Position numbers and translations under genes: made by a program
Part shown: piece after piece, positions 5,411 through 47,348 of the stretch
How the letters are laid out: each line of letters opens with the position of its first letter
How positions within the stretch are numbered: position 1 is the first letter of the stretch
Notes under the pieces: model-generated
Databases searched by the model: none
What the model saw: only the letters and a program-made list of their open reading frames with translations
Told to the model about the DNA's origin: nothing
NCBI GenBank assembly: GCA_016186995.1
Contig: JACPKQ010000022.1
Span: forward strand, 78,556 to 142,555
Length of the DNA: 64,000 nt
Direction: 5' to 3'
Source: Deltaproteobacteria bacterium
GTDB lineage: Bacteria; Bdellovibrionota; JACOXK01

Positions 5411-5650
5411 TTGTCGAGTTTATGTCACACGCATTATATCTTTCACTTCATGGTTCGCGATTTAGGCTCTTAAAATGGTTACTATCTTTCGCTTCATGGC
5501 TCGCTGTAGTTGCCATATCGAATTCTTCATTATCCCGTAAGTGCTAAAGCACTGTCCGGGATGCACAGTTTTGAATATTTACAAATCGTGGGCTGCGCTT
5601 TATTTCCGCTCCAGATAGTAACCATTTTCTCACATAAACTCGAATGCAAC
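5411..5650 (-). repeat. Composite palindromic repeat, type A, intergenic copy
   Basis: This is the left half of the 648-base gene-free stretch between the M16-like gene and tadC. Inverted arms AAAATGGTTACTATCT (5472-5487) and AGATAGTAACCATTTT (5613-5628) are perfect complements. Outside them are the family end motifs CACATAAACTCGAATGC and, on the other side, TTTAGGCTCTTAAAATGG. The interior holds CGCTTCATGGCTCGCTG, shared with the copies near 20.5 and 42.2 kb, plus a nested hairpin AGTGCTAAAGCACT inside a CGGGAT repeat. No ORF is supported here. Confidence 0.8.
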
Positions 5651-5688
5651 ATAAAGTTACCTAGTATGTTTTGAAGGCACATATAATC

Positions 5689-5842
5689 AAAAGATAGGGA
5701 TAGTGCTTACAGAGGGTCGTGTCGGAAGGCAAGCTGGCTTGGTCCACATAGAATATGTGGCAGATTGACTGAGACGCGAGGCGCACTTTTTCGCAGGAAA
5801 AAAGTGACGCCGTACCCGAGGGAAGTACTATCCCTATCTTTT
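5689..5842. repeat. Structured repeat element, type B, copy 1 (candidate structured RNA or MITE)
   Basis: This 154-base element has terminal arms AAAAGATAGGGATAGTGCTT and AAGTACTATCCCTATCTTTT that pair over 20 positions with one G.T wobble. The interior has internal hairpins: CCACAT..ATGTGG, and GGCG-ACTTTTTC pairing with GAAAAAAGT-CGCC. An almost identical interior recurs at 47196-47348. It is followed by the family end motif CCATTTTAAGAACCTAAG at about 5847. No coding sequence is evident. Confidence 0.8.
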
Positions 5843-18388: not shown

Positions 18389-18990
18389 AATTGTTGCGAA
18401 GCTTAAGTTCTTGGAATGGCATAATAACAACTTTGGTTCTGAGTAGGGAGGGTATTTACCCAATCCCTACTCTCTCATGGATACGTGTCATTGCGAGTGC
18501 AGCGAAGCAATCCCCTAGAATTCTTAAAAGAATTCTAGGAGATCACCACGGTTCATTTCATGAACCTCGTGATGACAGAAAAGCTGAAAAGGGGCAGGCG
18601 TTGACTGAATTTTTGCTTATTTTTATTTTACTTCTTTTTTTAATTCTTCTTCACTTTCAAGCTTCCATGAGTTTTGTTTCAAGTTCCTATATGAACTATG
18701 TTTCTTTCATGGGGGCTCGTACCAATATGGTGAGTGGAGAAGATCGTGCCCGGGCTGTTATTGAAAACATGTTAGGGCCATCTGAAGCAGGTTATCTAAG
18801 CCCTTTTGCTAGAGCAGAAGAAGCTCGGGTTACAGAAGGTGGGGTGGGTATTCCTTATAAATCCTATCTTTATATTCCTATTTTAAGATTTCAGGGACAA
18901 AAGGAAATGAATTTAGAAGCTACAACCCCTATGCGAAGAGAACCTGATTCTAATGCCTGTGGAAATCTGGAGCATGACAATGGGTGCTAA
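18385..18990 (+). CDS. TadE-like minor pilin with a repeat-expanded leader
   Basis: The mature part starts at AEKGQALTEFLLIFILLLFLIL (about residues 67-88), a TadE-type processing site and membrane helix. A soluble domain of about 110 residues follows. Between the initiator region (MKLLRSL) and this site lie about 60 residues encoded by a dispersed repeat (18401-18578), including the tell-tale WIRVIASAAKQSPR. Without the repeat, the leader would be about ten residues, as in its neighbours. The insert keeps the frame and would be removed by TadV with the leader, so the mature pilin is unchanged. Whether so long a leader is processed well is unknown. Confidence 0.8.
   Translation: MKLLRSLSSWNGIITTLVLSREGIYPIPTLSWIRVIASAAKQSPRILKRILGDHHGSFHEPRDDRKAEKGQALTEFLLIFILLLFLILLHFQASMSFVSSSYMNYVSFMGARTNMVSGEDRARAVIENMLGPSEAGYLSPFARAEEARVTEGGVGIPYKSYLYIPILRFQGQKEMNLEATTPMRREPDSNACGNLEHDNGC
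18401..18578 (+). repeat. Composite palindromic repeat inside the tadE-like gene
   Basis: It opens with the family end motif GCTTAAGTTCTTGGAATGGC. Then come the hairpin CTTTGGTTCT-GAGTAGGGA..TCCCTACTC-TCTCATGG, the unit TGTCATTGCGAG..GAAGCAATC, the palindrome CCTAGAATTCTT-AAA-AGAATTCTAGG, and GGTTCAT-TTC-ATGAACC before GTGATGACAG. The same module order recurs at 46925-47168. It is read through in frame. Confidence 0.85.
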
Positions 18991-19548: not shown

Positions 19549-20364
19549 ATGAAAAATTCAAAAGCTGTTATTATTTCAGGTTTATTAGCTGCAGTTTCAG
19601 TAGGGTTGCTTTATCTATGGGTTCAGCAAAAAACGGGCCCAAGCCTTGGAGAAACAGCAGAAGTTTATGTTATGGCAGGAGATGTAGGAGAGCTTGTTTC
19701 TATTGATGAAACGATGGTGCGAAAAGTGGCGTTACCTAAAAAATATATTCAACCAGGTGCGCTTGATAATTTAAATGTGATTATTGGAAGTATTGCTCGT
19801 GCCCCAATACAAAAGGGTGAACAAGTTCTTTTTACAAAGCTTTATTTAAAAGGGCAGCAAAATATTAATCTTTCCAGGCGTGTTTCAAAAAACAGCCGTG
19901 CTATTACGATTCCTGTTTCAGATGTTCATGGGGTCGCTAAGCTTATTCAACCCGGAGATCGAGTTGATGTTGTTGTTTCTGTTGATTACGGCGAGGGAGA
20001 TCGTGAAGTGCGCGAAGTAAAAACAGCTATGCAGGATGTTCTTGTTTTAGCAACAGGGCAATACATTGATTCAAACATTCCTTTAGAAAGACATGTTGAT
20101 GAAGTTACAGGTGCTATTAAAAGACAAGATTTAAGGCAAGAAAGGTACCGAAGTGTCACTTTAGAAGCAAACCCTGAACAAGTTCAAAAACTTGTTTTTA
20201 TGATGACGGCAGGGGAAGGGCTTATTTTCCTTTCTTTAAGAAACCCGTTGGATCGAGATTTTACAAGCATGGGAACAGCAGATCATGACACAGTATTGGG
20301 GCCAACGAGTAAAAGAGGGTCTCGAATTCGAATGCAGCGTCGACCTTTATGGCAGGAGTTTTAA
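19549..20364 (+). CDS. cpaB: CpaB/RcpC pilus assembly protein
   Basis: CpaB/RcpC is a periplasmic protein tied to the Tad secretin. The 271 residues show an N-terminal membrane anchor (about 6-24), an SAF-like domain (about 38-105, VYVMAGDVGELVSIDETMV) and the RcpC domain with RRVSKNSRAITIPVS and KLIQPGDRVDVVVS. It lies between the minor pilins and the secretin, the standard order. A clear AAGGGGAAGG-type ribosome site precedes the ATG. Confidence 0.92.
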   Translation: MKNSKAVIISGLLAAVSVGLLYLWVQQKTGPSLGETAEVYVMAGDVGELVSIDETMVRKVALPKKYIQPGALDNLNVIIGSIARAPIQKGEQVLFTKLYLKGQQNINLSRRVSKNSRAITIPVSDVHGVAKLIQPGDRVDVVVSVDYGEGDREVREVKTAMQDVLVLATGQYIDSNIPLERHVDEVTGAIKRQDLRQERYRSVTLEANPEQVQKLVFMMTAGEGLIFLSLRNPLDRDFTSMGTADHDTVLGPTSKRGSRIRMQRRPLWQEF

Positions 20365-20378
20365 AAAAGGATATTTTC

Positions 20379-22202
20379 ATGAGAACTTATAAAATAAATA
20401 ACACAGTTAAGTTCTTGAAATGGCTAGTTTACATAAACACGAGCTTAAGCAAGCACACTATTCGTGACTATGTGAAGAAATGGTCAGTGTTTGGAGCGGA
20501 AGTAAAGCGCAGCCCACGGTTCGTAATAAAAAGAATATCGATCCTTTGGCTGAAGCCTCTGGATGACAAACTACAGCGAGCCATGAAGCGGAAAACACTG
20601 CCATTTCAAGAACCTAAGCTGCAAAATACATTATTGCTGTTGATAACCTTTTTTTTACTAAGCATCTCAAGTATGAATACCGCTTTTTCGAAGACGGAAG
20701 AGAAGGTGGATATTCCTACTGTTTATCTTAATTTTACAAACAATATTCCAAAGTTTCGCCGTGTTGATTTTTCCATTGGTAGAGTTGTTCCAGCAGATAG
20801 AAATATTGCAAATGGGCTGATTCCACCAGGGCAAAAAGTGCCAAGTCTTATTCACTTTATTCCTAAAACACCCGGGCTTACAAGTATTACTGTTTACGAT
20901 ACCAAAAATAACCCACGTATTGTTTACCAAATTACAGTTCTCTCCAAAGATCAGGGGGCTATTATTTCTGAACTCAATCAACTCTTAGGAGAAGTCGAGG
21001 GTATTCAGATAAGCCCAGTAGGTACTAAGGTCGCTATTGGTGGAGAAATTATTTTGCCTCGTGATTTAAGAAAAATTATTTCTGTTATAGGTCAAGTTGA
21101 TAAAGATAAAGATTATAAAGGTAAAATTATTTTAACTGCAGCTCTTTCAGATCTTTCAAAACAACTGATTGCTAACATGATTATGAGAGAAATTTCAGAA
21201 AATGAAGCTCTTAAATCTGTAGCCGCCAAGGTTTATGTAAAACCTATTAAAAATAATTTTCAACTCGTAGGTATTGTTGATACCGATGATCAAAGAAAAA
21301 AAATAGAAACCATTGCTTTTGAATTCATTCCCGATTTTTATAGAGAGCCTTCTCAATTTAAAGAATTTGAAATTCAAATGCCCTTACCACGAATTGTAAA
21401 CTTGATCGATTTAGCGCCTGAAAAGAAAGAAGCACCTAAAGCGCCCACACTTTATAAGATTACAGCTCGTTATGTTGAGATGAATAAAAACTATCTTCGT
21501 CAGTTTGGTATTGATTGGGGACCAGGGTTTGTGGATACCTCAAAGCTTGAGGTCGATTCTGAAAAGGTAGGTGTTATTGGAGCTGTCACAGGAACAATAA
21601 ATAGCCTCATTCCAAAATTAAAAACGGCCAAGGAATTAGGTTTAGCGCGCGAACTTCAAGCTTTTGAAATTCTTATAACTGAAGGAGAAAACGGCATTAT
21701 TTCTAATGTAACGAATATTCCTTTTCCTGTGATTGGCGAAAGAGGGCAAGAGGGCACCGAGTTTGCTCCGACAGGTTTAGATGCAGTCGTCAAACCAAAT
21801 GCTATTGGAGATAAAGCCAATAATGTTAAATTAGCACTTAAGTTCAGTCTTAAAACATTAGCTGGTTTCGTCAATGCTAGACCTTCTATTACTGAAAACA
21901 AAATGGATACAACCATTACTCTTAAACCAGATCAAAGTGCTGCTATTGGTGGTTTAGTGACGGCAAGTTTAGGAAAAGAGTTTAATAGAATGCCTAAAGC
22001 AACACAGGAAATATCAGATCCTATTTTTAGATTACTTCGTTCTAAAGCGTTTCGAGATAATAAGTCTCAATTTGTTATTTTCGTGACTCCTCAGATCATG
22101 ACAGATGTCAAAGTGAATGCTGAGGCTTCTACTGTTGGAGATAAGTTTAACATCAAGTTACCTGAGGCTATTAAAGATGATCCGGGGTTAACGGAGAATT
22201 AA
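20379..22202 (+). CDS. cpaC: CpaC/RcpA outer-membrane secretin of the Tad pilus
   Basis: This secretin forms the outer-membrane pore for the pilus. The track ORF begins at 20349, but the ATG at 20379 (MRTYKINN) has AAGG at a good distance and leaves the cpaB end free. A signal-peptide core (NTLLLLITFFLLSIS) appears only at about residue 85 because about 70 residues encoded by a repeat are inserted before it. Downstream are a pilus-secretin N domain (about 115-190), a BON-like segment (IISVIGQVDKDKDYKGK), and the secretin domain (about 430-590) with LKPDQSAAIGGLV and FVIFVTPQIMTD. A second ATG inside the repeat (MKRKTLPFQ, about 20584) would give a normal signal peptide and may be the start now used. 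Confidence 0.9.
   Translation: MRTYKINNTVKFLKWLVYINTSLSKHTIRDYVKKWSVFGAEVKRSPRFVIKRISILWLKPLDDKLQRAMKRKTLPFQEPKLQNTLLLLITFFLLSISSMNTAFSKTEEKVDIPTVYLNFTNNIPKFRRVDFSIGRVVPADRNIANGLIPPGQKVPSLIHFIPKTPGLTSITVYDTKNNPRIVYQITVLSKDQGAIISELNQLLGEVEGIQISPVGTKVAIGGEIILPRDLRKIISVIGQVDKDKDYKGKIILTAALSDLSKQLIANMIMREISENEALKSVAAKVYVKPIKNNFQLVGIVDTDDQRKKIETIAFEFIPDFYREPSQFKEFEIQMPLPRIVNLIDLAPEKKEAPKAPTLYKITARYVEMNKNYLRQFGIDWGPGFVDTSKLEVDSEKVGVIGAVTGTINSLIPKLKTAKELGLARELQAFEILITEGENGIISNVTNIPFPVIGERGQEGTEFAPTGLDAVVKPNAIGDKANNVKLALKFSLKTLAGFVNARPSITENKMDTTITLKPDQSAAIGGLVTASLGKEFNRMPKATQEISDPIFRLLRSKAFRDNKSQFVIFVTPQIMTDVKVNAEASTVGDKFNIKLPEAIKDDPGLTEN
20407..20619 (+). repeat. Composite palindromic repeat, type A, inside cpaC
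   Basis: The element is bounded by inverted ends TTAAGTTCTTGAAATGG (20407-20423) and CCATTTCAAGAACCTAA (about 20601-20617). Inside, GAAATGGTCAGTGTTT (about 20477-20493) pairs with AAACACTGCCATTTC near the right end. The interior shares TGGAGCGGAAGTAAAGCG and GCGAGCCATGAAGCGGAA with the copy near 42.2 kb. It is about 213 bases, so it adds about 71 codons without breaking the frame. Confidence 0.85.
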
Positions 22203-35164: not shown

Positions 35165-35460
35165 ACAACTTCTGTCATCCCTGCATCCCTCTTTGTCATC
35201 CCTGCGTAGGCAGGGATCCAGTATTTTTCTTTTTACAATCCTGGTTCTGAGTAGCTTATGTTCTTGATGACCTGAAGAATCTTTCAGTGCCCCTCCGCCC
35301 GGTGTGGATCCTCCCTGAAAGACTCTTCAGGTCATCTTCACATAGACTCGAATGCTGTCATTCTGAGCGTATGCGAAGAATATAATTCGTATTATACCCT
35401 TCACTACGTTCAGGGTGACAGAGAAAGCACTCGGGATGACAGAGGGGTTCGTGGGGATGA
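35165..35460. repeat. Array of mixed palindromic repeats, with a 22-base-pair hairpin
   Basis: The 366-base gap before the kinase gene is filled with repeats. A GTCATCCCTGCGTAGGCAGGGATCCAG unit is followed by the partial module CTGGTTCTGAGTAG. Then comes the hairpin GATGACCTGAAGAATCTTTCAG (about 35266-35287) pairing 21 of 22 with CTGAAAGACTCTTCAGGTCATC (about 35315-35336), flanked by the usual ends TTATGTTCTT and TTCACATAGACTCG. A TCATTCTGAGCG..TTCAGGGTGACAG unit and GATGACAG fragments close the array. Confidence 0.85.
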
Positions 35461-41796: not shown

Positions 41797-42325
41797 ATCC
41801 CCCTTATCGGAATATTACGTGTCATCCTGAGCCGCTTCATGGCTCGTGTTCAAAAATCCTTCAACTTTAAGTTCTTAAAAATGGCCACAAAAGACAGGGA
41901 TAGTGCTTCCCTCGATATATTACATCGGTGGGACTGTATTTCTCAAAAACACGCTATCAAAATTCCCTGCGAGAATTTTGCGCTCTCTCTCGGCCGCGAG
42001 AAGGTTTTTTTGAAACACAGTTCCACCTCTTTATATCTTTTGCCCTATAACTTTATTCTCGAGTTTATGTGAAGATGGGCTGAATTTCGAGTCCATGAGA
42101 GAGTAGGGACTGGGTAAACACCCTCCCTACTCAGAACCAAAGTTGTAATTATGTGAGGAAATGGTCAGTGTCTGGAGCGGAAGTAAAGCGGAGCTCTATG
42201 AGGCCTTGCCGAATAAAGAGCGAGCCATGAAGCGGAAGACACTGCCATTTCAAGAACTTAAGTTCGAATAAACCCTGGATTCCCGCCTTCGCGGGAATGA
42301 CAGAGGGGGATCCCGGGAATGACAA
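41797..42325. repeat. Composite repeat array before the 42.6 kb gene
   Basis: This fills most of an 800-base gene-free stretch. Blocks in order: a family end TTAAGTTCTTAAAAATGGCC; a type-B-like arm ACAAAAGACAGGGATAGTGCTT; the inverted pair GGTGGGACTGT..ACAGTTCCACC; the end CGAGTTTATGTGAAGA; and the hairpin module GAGTAGGGA..TCCCTACTC (reverse). Next is a type A copy with AAATGGTCAGTGTCT..AGACACTGCCATTTCAAGAACTTAAG (about 42151-42262), then CATTCCCGC palindromes. From 42326 to 42550 I see no repeat or gene. Confidence 0.85.
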
Positions 42326-47168: not shown

Positions 47169-47195
47169 CGAAAAATAAAAACTAAAGCTTATGTA

Positions 47196-47348
47196 AAAAA
47201 CAGGGGGAGTGCTTGCAGAGGGTCGTGTCGGAAGGAAATCTGGCTTGGTCCACATAGAATATGTGGCAGATTGACTGAGACGCGAGGCGCACTTTTTCGC
47301 AGGAAAAAAAGTGACGCCGTACCCGATGGAAGCACTCTCCCTGTTTTT
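47196..47348. repeat. Structured repeat element, type B, copy 2
   Basis: Terminal arms AAAAACAGGGGGAGTGCTT and AAGCACTCTCCCTGTTTTT pair over 19 positions with one wobble. The 115-base interior differs from copy 1 (5689-5842) at about five positions. It is flanked by TTATGT and by CCATTTCAAGAACTTAAG. The track ORF 47163-47369 and the long N-terminus of the lysS track ORF run into it and are not real. Confidence 0.82.

Follow-up and report, generated by a model that had tools for sequence, protein, structure and literature searches.

The window, a stretch of 64,000 nucleotides (G000:C10:78556-142555) from a 93%-complete genome of 1.68 Mb in 30 contigs, here referred to as G000, contains three copies of a hairpin repeat that we call type A. 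The 5.5-kb copy (5462..5644, delineated from the sequence and from relatives) lies on the minus strand relative to the 20.5-kb and 42.2-kb copies, and comprises ends, arms, core 1 and a nested palindrome. Its arm AAAATGGTTACTATCT is found at 5472..5487 and the partner arm AGATAGTAACCATTTT, also supported by pairing statistics, at 5613..5628. Between the arms and likewise on the minus strand are the right half of core 1 at 5488..5508 (reverse complement of ACAGCGAGCCATGAAGCGAAA), which is kept in the relatives G002 and G004, and the left half at 5591..5612 (reverse complement of GGAGCGGAAATAAAGCGCAGCC), recognised in the sequence, the alignment and relatives. The nested palindrome ATCCCGTAAGTGCTAAAGCACTGTCCGGGAT, seen in sequence and alignment, occupies 5532..5562 and is given no strand. 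On the plus strand, the 20.5-kb copy (20461..20618) has the arm GAAATGGTCAGTGTTT at 20477..20492 and its partner AAACACTGCCATTTC, one base short, at 20593..20607, and the 42.2-kb copy (42143..42263), whose interior is short, has the arms AAATGGTCAGTGTCT at 42159..42173 and AGACACTGCCATTT at 42237..42250. The right arms of these two copies are without one A that is present elsewhere in the family (CTGCCATTT vs CTGACCATTT), which leaves a one-base bulge in both stems. The first-pass annotation had listed three arm pairs with different sequences, the last two separated by a single compensated pair; all three pairs were located at 5.5, 20.5 and 42.2 kb, and the compensated pair was borne out on reading the sequence.

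The 20.5-kb copy stands at the 5' end of an open reading frame (20349-22202) identified as a secretin by a PF00263 match. On reading of the sequence, the ATG inside this copy (GCCATGAAGCGG; ATGAAGCGG, Met-Lys-Arg), which precedes a signal peptide, may be the secretin start codon, and one copy in G002 has a similar arrangement (MKRKKTSSFSLLFGIIFISIPVFS). The reading frame itself (window 20349-20620) begins in a second repeat (TTAAGTTCTTGAAATGGCTAGTTTACATAAACACGAGCTTAAG) immediately ahead of the type A copy, and the two repeats together may therefore make up the N-terminus. Other repeats are also present in the window. One of about 155 bp, with arms CAAAAGATAGGGATAGT/ACTATCCCTATCTTTTG and halves that are 94% and 89% alike, lies at 5687-5841, adjoining the 5.5-kb type A copy, and again at 47195-47348. 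Dispersed repeats of the GTCATTCCCGCGAAGGCGGGAATCCAG type occur at 22196, 24471, 35195, 41272, 42266 and 44879, and those of the GTCATTGCGAG...GAAGCAATC type at 18466, 40629, 44768, 45140 and 47002. Finally, a hairpin on the minus strand (35255..35352) carries the type A left end together with core 2 (GGATCCACACCGGGCGGAGGGG, 35290-35311).

DNA searches with the three window copies, mapped onto the stretches that were read, gave 61 places, or about 60 type A places in G000, counted over stretches around matches. Both core halves are present at 45 places; at 13 more the right half was identified, the left half being absent or unrecognised. Read in the direction of the 20.5-kb copy, the elements follow one another as TTCGAGTYYATGTGA, arm, GGAGCGGAAGTAAAGCGCAGCC, interior, TACAGCGAGCCATGAAGCGRAAG, second arm and AAGAACYTAAG; the interior frequently includes a nested palindrome that belongs to a different repeat, and in units of the 42.2-kb type it is short. 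The shared outer ends proposed from the three copies were confirmed in G000, with 50 matches to the left-end motif TTCGNGTYYATG against 1 for the reversed control, and 82 matches to the end motif AAGAACYWARG against 12. These ends are particular to the window's genome: the strict left-end motif has 33 matches in G000 and 0 or 1 per genome in 38 relatives. They are common to the G000 copies yet only partly complementary to each other, and within G000 the same ends occur on hairpins with different cores, namely core 1 in type A, core 2 in others and a third type with GAGAGTAGG/CCTACTC. Palindromes sampled around repeats in G000 form families with shared arms, and a second, unrelated arm family (GCTAACCTTTCAAATTTT) is found beside the same core.

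The arms remain paired while their sequence changes, as had been suggested from the window alone. Among the 45 copies with both core halves, the mean pairing score of own arms is 34.4, compared with 22.8±1.0 when the right arms are permuted, and 0 of 20,000 permutations reach the observed value; when identical pairs are left out of the main arm group, the score is 33.9 compared with 24.4±1.1 (again 0/20,000). In an alignment of 35 copies with 15 arm pairs, 98.3% of the arm cells are paired (89.0±0.8 after shuffling), two-sided change affects 9 of the 15 pairs and 52 cells, and the covariation score is 0.320 compared with 0.141±0.013, with all slid versions far lower. Pairing of this degree is far above chance. 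None of 500 shuffles matched the observed number of paired cells, changed pairs or changed cells, or the covariation score. Since the copies are related by descent, these pairing counts measure the strength of pairing and not the number of independent events. Eleven G-U states were seen at one arm pair in the 35 copies, and some copies (C25:17304, C3:75747) have mismatched hybrid arms.

Copies in G000 and G004 are mostly intergenic, several of them directly after stop codons, and long open reading frames hold just 3 of the 45 G000 copies, each near the 5' end. Such positions, together with the two-sided change of the arms, would fit hairpins that act as RNA (terminators, mRNA-stability or regulatory elements), in which case covariation would reflect selection on RNA folding. 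We regard this as improbable: copies are found on the same strand as genes, on the opposite strand and between convergent genes, relatives also have copies in frame inside the coding sequences of purL, comEC and selB, and Rfam gave no match in the window at the gathering threshold, with only implausible permissive matches at five loci.

A sequence-only model of type A gave weak matches in G002, a complete genome of another family in the same class, and these matches have the type A core but other arms. The part conserved across the class is the apical core (GGAGCGGAAGTAAAGCGCAGC…GCGAGCCATGAAGCG), and neither the ends nor the arms. When 368 genomes of the phylum were scanned for the pattern with at most 3 mismatches, core 1 was multi-copy in G000 (52), G002 (4) and G004 (13); elsewhere there are scattered near-matches with 2-3 mismatches, similar to those of the reversed control. 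Core 2 was counted in G000 (16), G002 (2), G004 (12), G005 (4), G006 (1) and G007 (1), with 0 in the control and none in G001 or G003. Neither core 1 nor core 2 was found in G001, the sole genome of the same family that was compared (89% complete). Contigs scanned with the secretin yielded no relative, and MutS placed the host loosely, its best match being 41% identical and from a deltaproteobacterial MAG. Outside the phylum, E. coli genomes gave no match and viral contigs none to core 2; for core 1 in viral contigs the left strand had 0 matches and the right strand 2, which were judged chance on reading. A plasmid and phage match of 21-22 nt around CCCTTCGGG was likewise set aside as a common tetraloop hairpin matching by chance. 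Betaproteobacterial conjugative plasmids (L328, L329) have intergenic hairpins beside ssb and DUF932 genes that have 21 nt (GCTCGCCCTTCGGGCTGCGCT) in common with core 1, probably by chance.

In the relatives, the cores sit in palindromes with arms of 15–38 bp, mostly near-perfect, and the arm sequence is unique to each locus. Every core 1 copy in G004 has its own arm, for example CACGCCTAAAATCCACAGAAAATTAAAGTAATA with its exact complement, and for 20 G004 arms checked for third copies no other full-length copy was present in the G004 sequence examined. Core 2 copies in G002, G004, G005, G006 and G007 have locus-specific arms too. Where palindromes in the 332 kb analysed from G004 have arms of at least 17 bp, they contain core 1 or core 2, with two exceptions, L332:3515 (unknown core) and L349:9169 (another repeat); the former has 29-bp arms around a GC-rich loop of 114 nt unlike any named core. 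Most long palindromes of G005, G006 and G007 hold core 1, 2, 3 or 4, the exceptions being L421:3565 and L417:17076.

Orthologous arms, aligned gap-free outwards from the core, diverge between species while staying largely paired within each. In the comparison of G005 with G007 at the core 4 locus, changes on both arms affect 10 of 18 positions and other changes 1; the corresponding figures are 4 of 24 and 4 for selA in G006 and G007, and 9 of 37 and 9 for purS-purQ in G004 and G005. The region upstream of the selA-like gene has core 3 in G005 and core 2 in G006 and G007 (L415:3482-3632, L392:1466-1577, L413).

Four loci, purS-purQ, purL-purF, comEC and selB, could be compared with and without a core, and no single insertion model fits all of them. 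G006 is without a core at purS-purQ and retains the sequence of the G005 left arm; this locus was dropped as a clean filled/empty pair, because G004 has a core there too and the G006 state may have arisen by deletion. In G004 the stretch added at purL-purF seems to include both arms, with a possible 7-bp direct repeat, TTTAAAT, around the copy (read by eye). By hand count, comEC of G004 exceeds three orthologs by 19 residues (57 bp), and selB of G002 exceeds one ortholog by about 78 bp. The net length added at comEC corresponds approximately to the core and inner arms only, as would be expected if the core inserted into the loops of already existing palindromes. That reading is very hard to sustain, given that long palindromes without a core are nearly absent from the 332 kb of G004, and that shuffling 369 kb of G000 sequence gave no such palindromes.

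The direct repeat at purL-purF would instead favour a non-autonomous unit with defined ends, similar to a MITE or a Rickettsia palindromic element, that is moved in trans by an enzyme reading the hairpin while selection keeps the pairing. The conserved ends at about 60 places in G000, the strong two-sided change of the arms and the intermediate G-U states, which are expected of stepwise compensation, are also consistent with it. Set against these, the arms of relatives are locus-specific around the same core, and the ends are missing from those genomes. Moreover, target-site duplications, which the first-pass annotation had proposed to look for, were sought by comparing flanks within G000, and a mosaic of repeat modules was seen with no consistent duplication; nor was a mobilising enzyme found in G000 in a search for the Y1 transposase family (PF01797), for which control genomes were positive. 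We regard this explanation as possible but less likely than not. As for the defined mobile unit recognised by structure that had been suggested for the window copies, the dispersed unit, its shared ends and its covarying arms stand, and recognition by structure is not supported, in view of the locus-unique arms of the relatives.

The origin of the arms could be polarised in one gene, purL. In G007, the purL linker contains core 3 with 28-bp arms. Read in gene direction, the right arm codes for NESLSFEE, whose homologues are DESLSLEE in G005, DKSLSLEE in G006 and DESSSLED in G002. The left arm is an inverted copy of the native coding right arm. The two arms differ at two sites, where the inverted copy has the G005 state, which fits copying that preceded mutation of the native arm. 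The linkers of G005 and G006 retain a truncated core 3. The same holds in G002, where GATGAGTCATCTTCTCTAG, the right arm, is native coding sequence and the left arm an imperfect inverted copy of it, but core 3 itself lies in the opposite orientation to that of G007 (88.9% identity over 99 nt). An inverted copy of host coding sequence together with inversion of the core is a signature of template switching, so that arms would pair without any recogniser. The G003 linker has two different palindromes, and the linker in general (L384, L386, L383, L382, L385) is a tolerated hot spot; independent insertions of core 3 in two orientations are accordingly possible.

On balance we favour, with a probability of roughly 55%, an explanation in which hairpin cores are dispersed and replication template switching both creates their arms and later matches them again, with amplified units of fixed arms in G000. 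A replicating strand would switch template at the hairpin of the core, copy the neighbouring host sequence backwards and return. The long arms would then be reverse-complement copies of each other, and the core the conserved piece. Later switching would re-copy one arm onto the other, so that a mutation in one arm would soon be present in both. In G000, some finished hairpins, with the core, particular arms and the TTCGAG.../...AAGAACYTAAG ends, would have then spread as units. Because the sides can copy neighbouring host DNA in the relatives, matched changes probably represent one side copied onto the other as the DNA replicates, and not the action of a protein that recognises the hairpin shape. 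We infer from these observations template switching as the agent, its action on the G000 copies and the route to new sites. The evidence for switching comes from the relatives; the arms of the three window copies are common to many copies.

Several findings weigh against template switching. Change is stepwise too, given the G-U states noted above, and stepwise compensation in the arms is possible; at two of the orthologous loci, selA and purS-purQ, other changes are as numerous as those on both arms; and the placement of both G004 arms within the added stretch at purL-purF does not fit easily. These cores might represent a class of mobile elements without terminal repeats of their own, in which the core alone is transmitted, copies the target flank backwards into arms at each new site and keeps them matched as they evolve, although we consider this less likely than not.

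Dispersed bacterial palindromes, Rickettsia palindromic elements (RPEs) in genes and template-switch hairpins are already known, while short conserved cores with locus-specific inverted-repeat arms across a class were not found in the literature searched, which was limited in extent. Among the known systems, REP/BIME sequences moved by RAYT transposases (PMC3733652) are also short dispersed palindromes of bacteria, mostly extragenic and some intragenic. However, the stems of REP sequences measure 5-13 bp and have a GTAG or CGTC tag, whereas the arms here reach 15-38 bp with no such tag noticed, and G000 gave no PF01797 match to the Y1 transposase gene that accompanies REP. The palindromic elements of Rickettsia and Wolbachia (RPE/WPE, PMC3767692) are dispersed palindromic repeats of 100-150 bp that also occur in unbroken reading frames, as the copies of relatives do in purL, comEC and selB. 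Compared by description only, RPE families differ from the present one in that the arms of our relatives are unique to each locus. Coding palindromes of nematomorph mitochondria (PMC6649704) are perfect inverted repeats in genes with arms kept identical, for which template switching has been proposed; a conserved dispersed core is not mentioned in that account, unlike the palindromes described here.

The family also resembles template-switch hairpins, which have perfect reverse-complement arms derived from neighbouring sequence, re-matched stems and inverted spacers (PMC8794818; PMC8604942). Template switching is reported to produce a perfect hairpin in a single step and to make stems match again (PMC8794818), and arm homogenisation and spacer inversion are its documented products (PMC8604942). 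In the present family, an arm is a reverse-complement copy of its native neighbour at purL in G007 and G002, arms were homogenised over time at three orthologous loci, with exceptions, and the spacer, core 3, is inverted at purL between G002 and G007, where independent insertion is possible too. Compensatory change is the usual proof of a functional stem, yet the covarying arms, in the relatives at least, copy arbitrary host DNA. The family also illustrates one way in which bacterial proteins have their linkers and N-termini rewritten. Template-switch hairpins are known as scattered single events; here, in contrast, short conserved cores are repeated at dozens of loci throughout a class. The family thus provides dozens of natural replicates for finding out how frequently covariation arises by template switching and not by selection.
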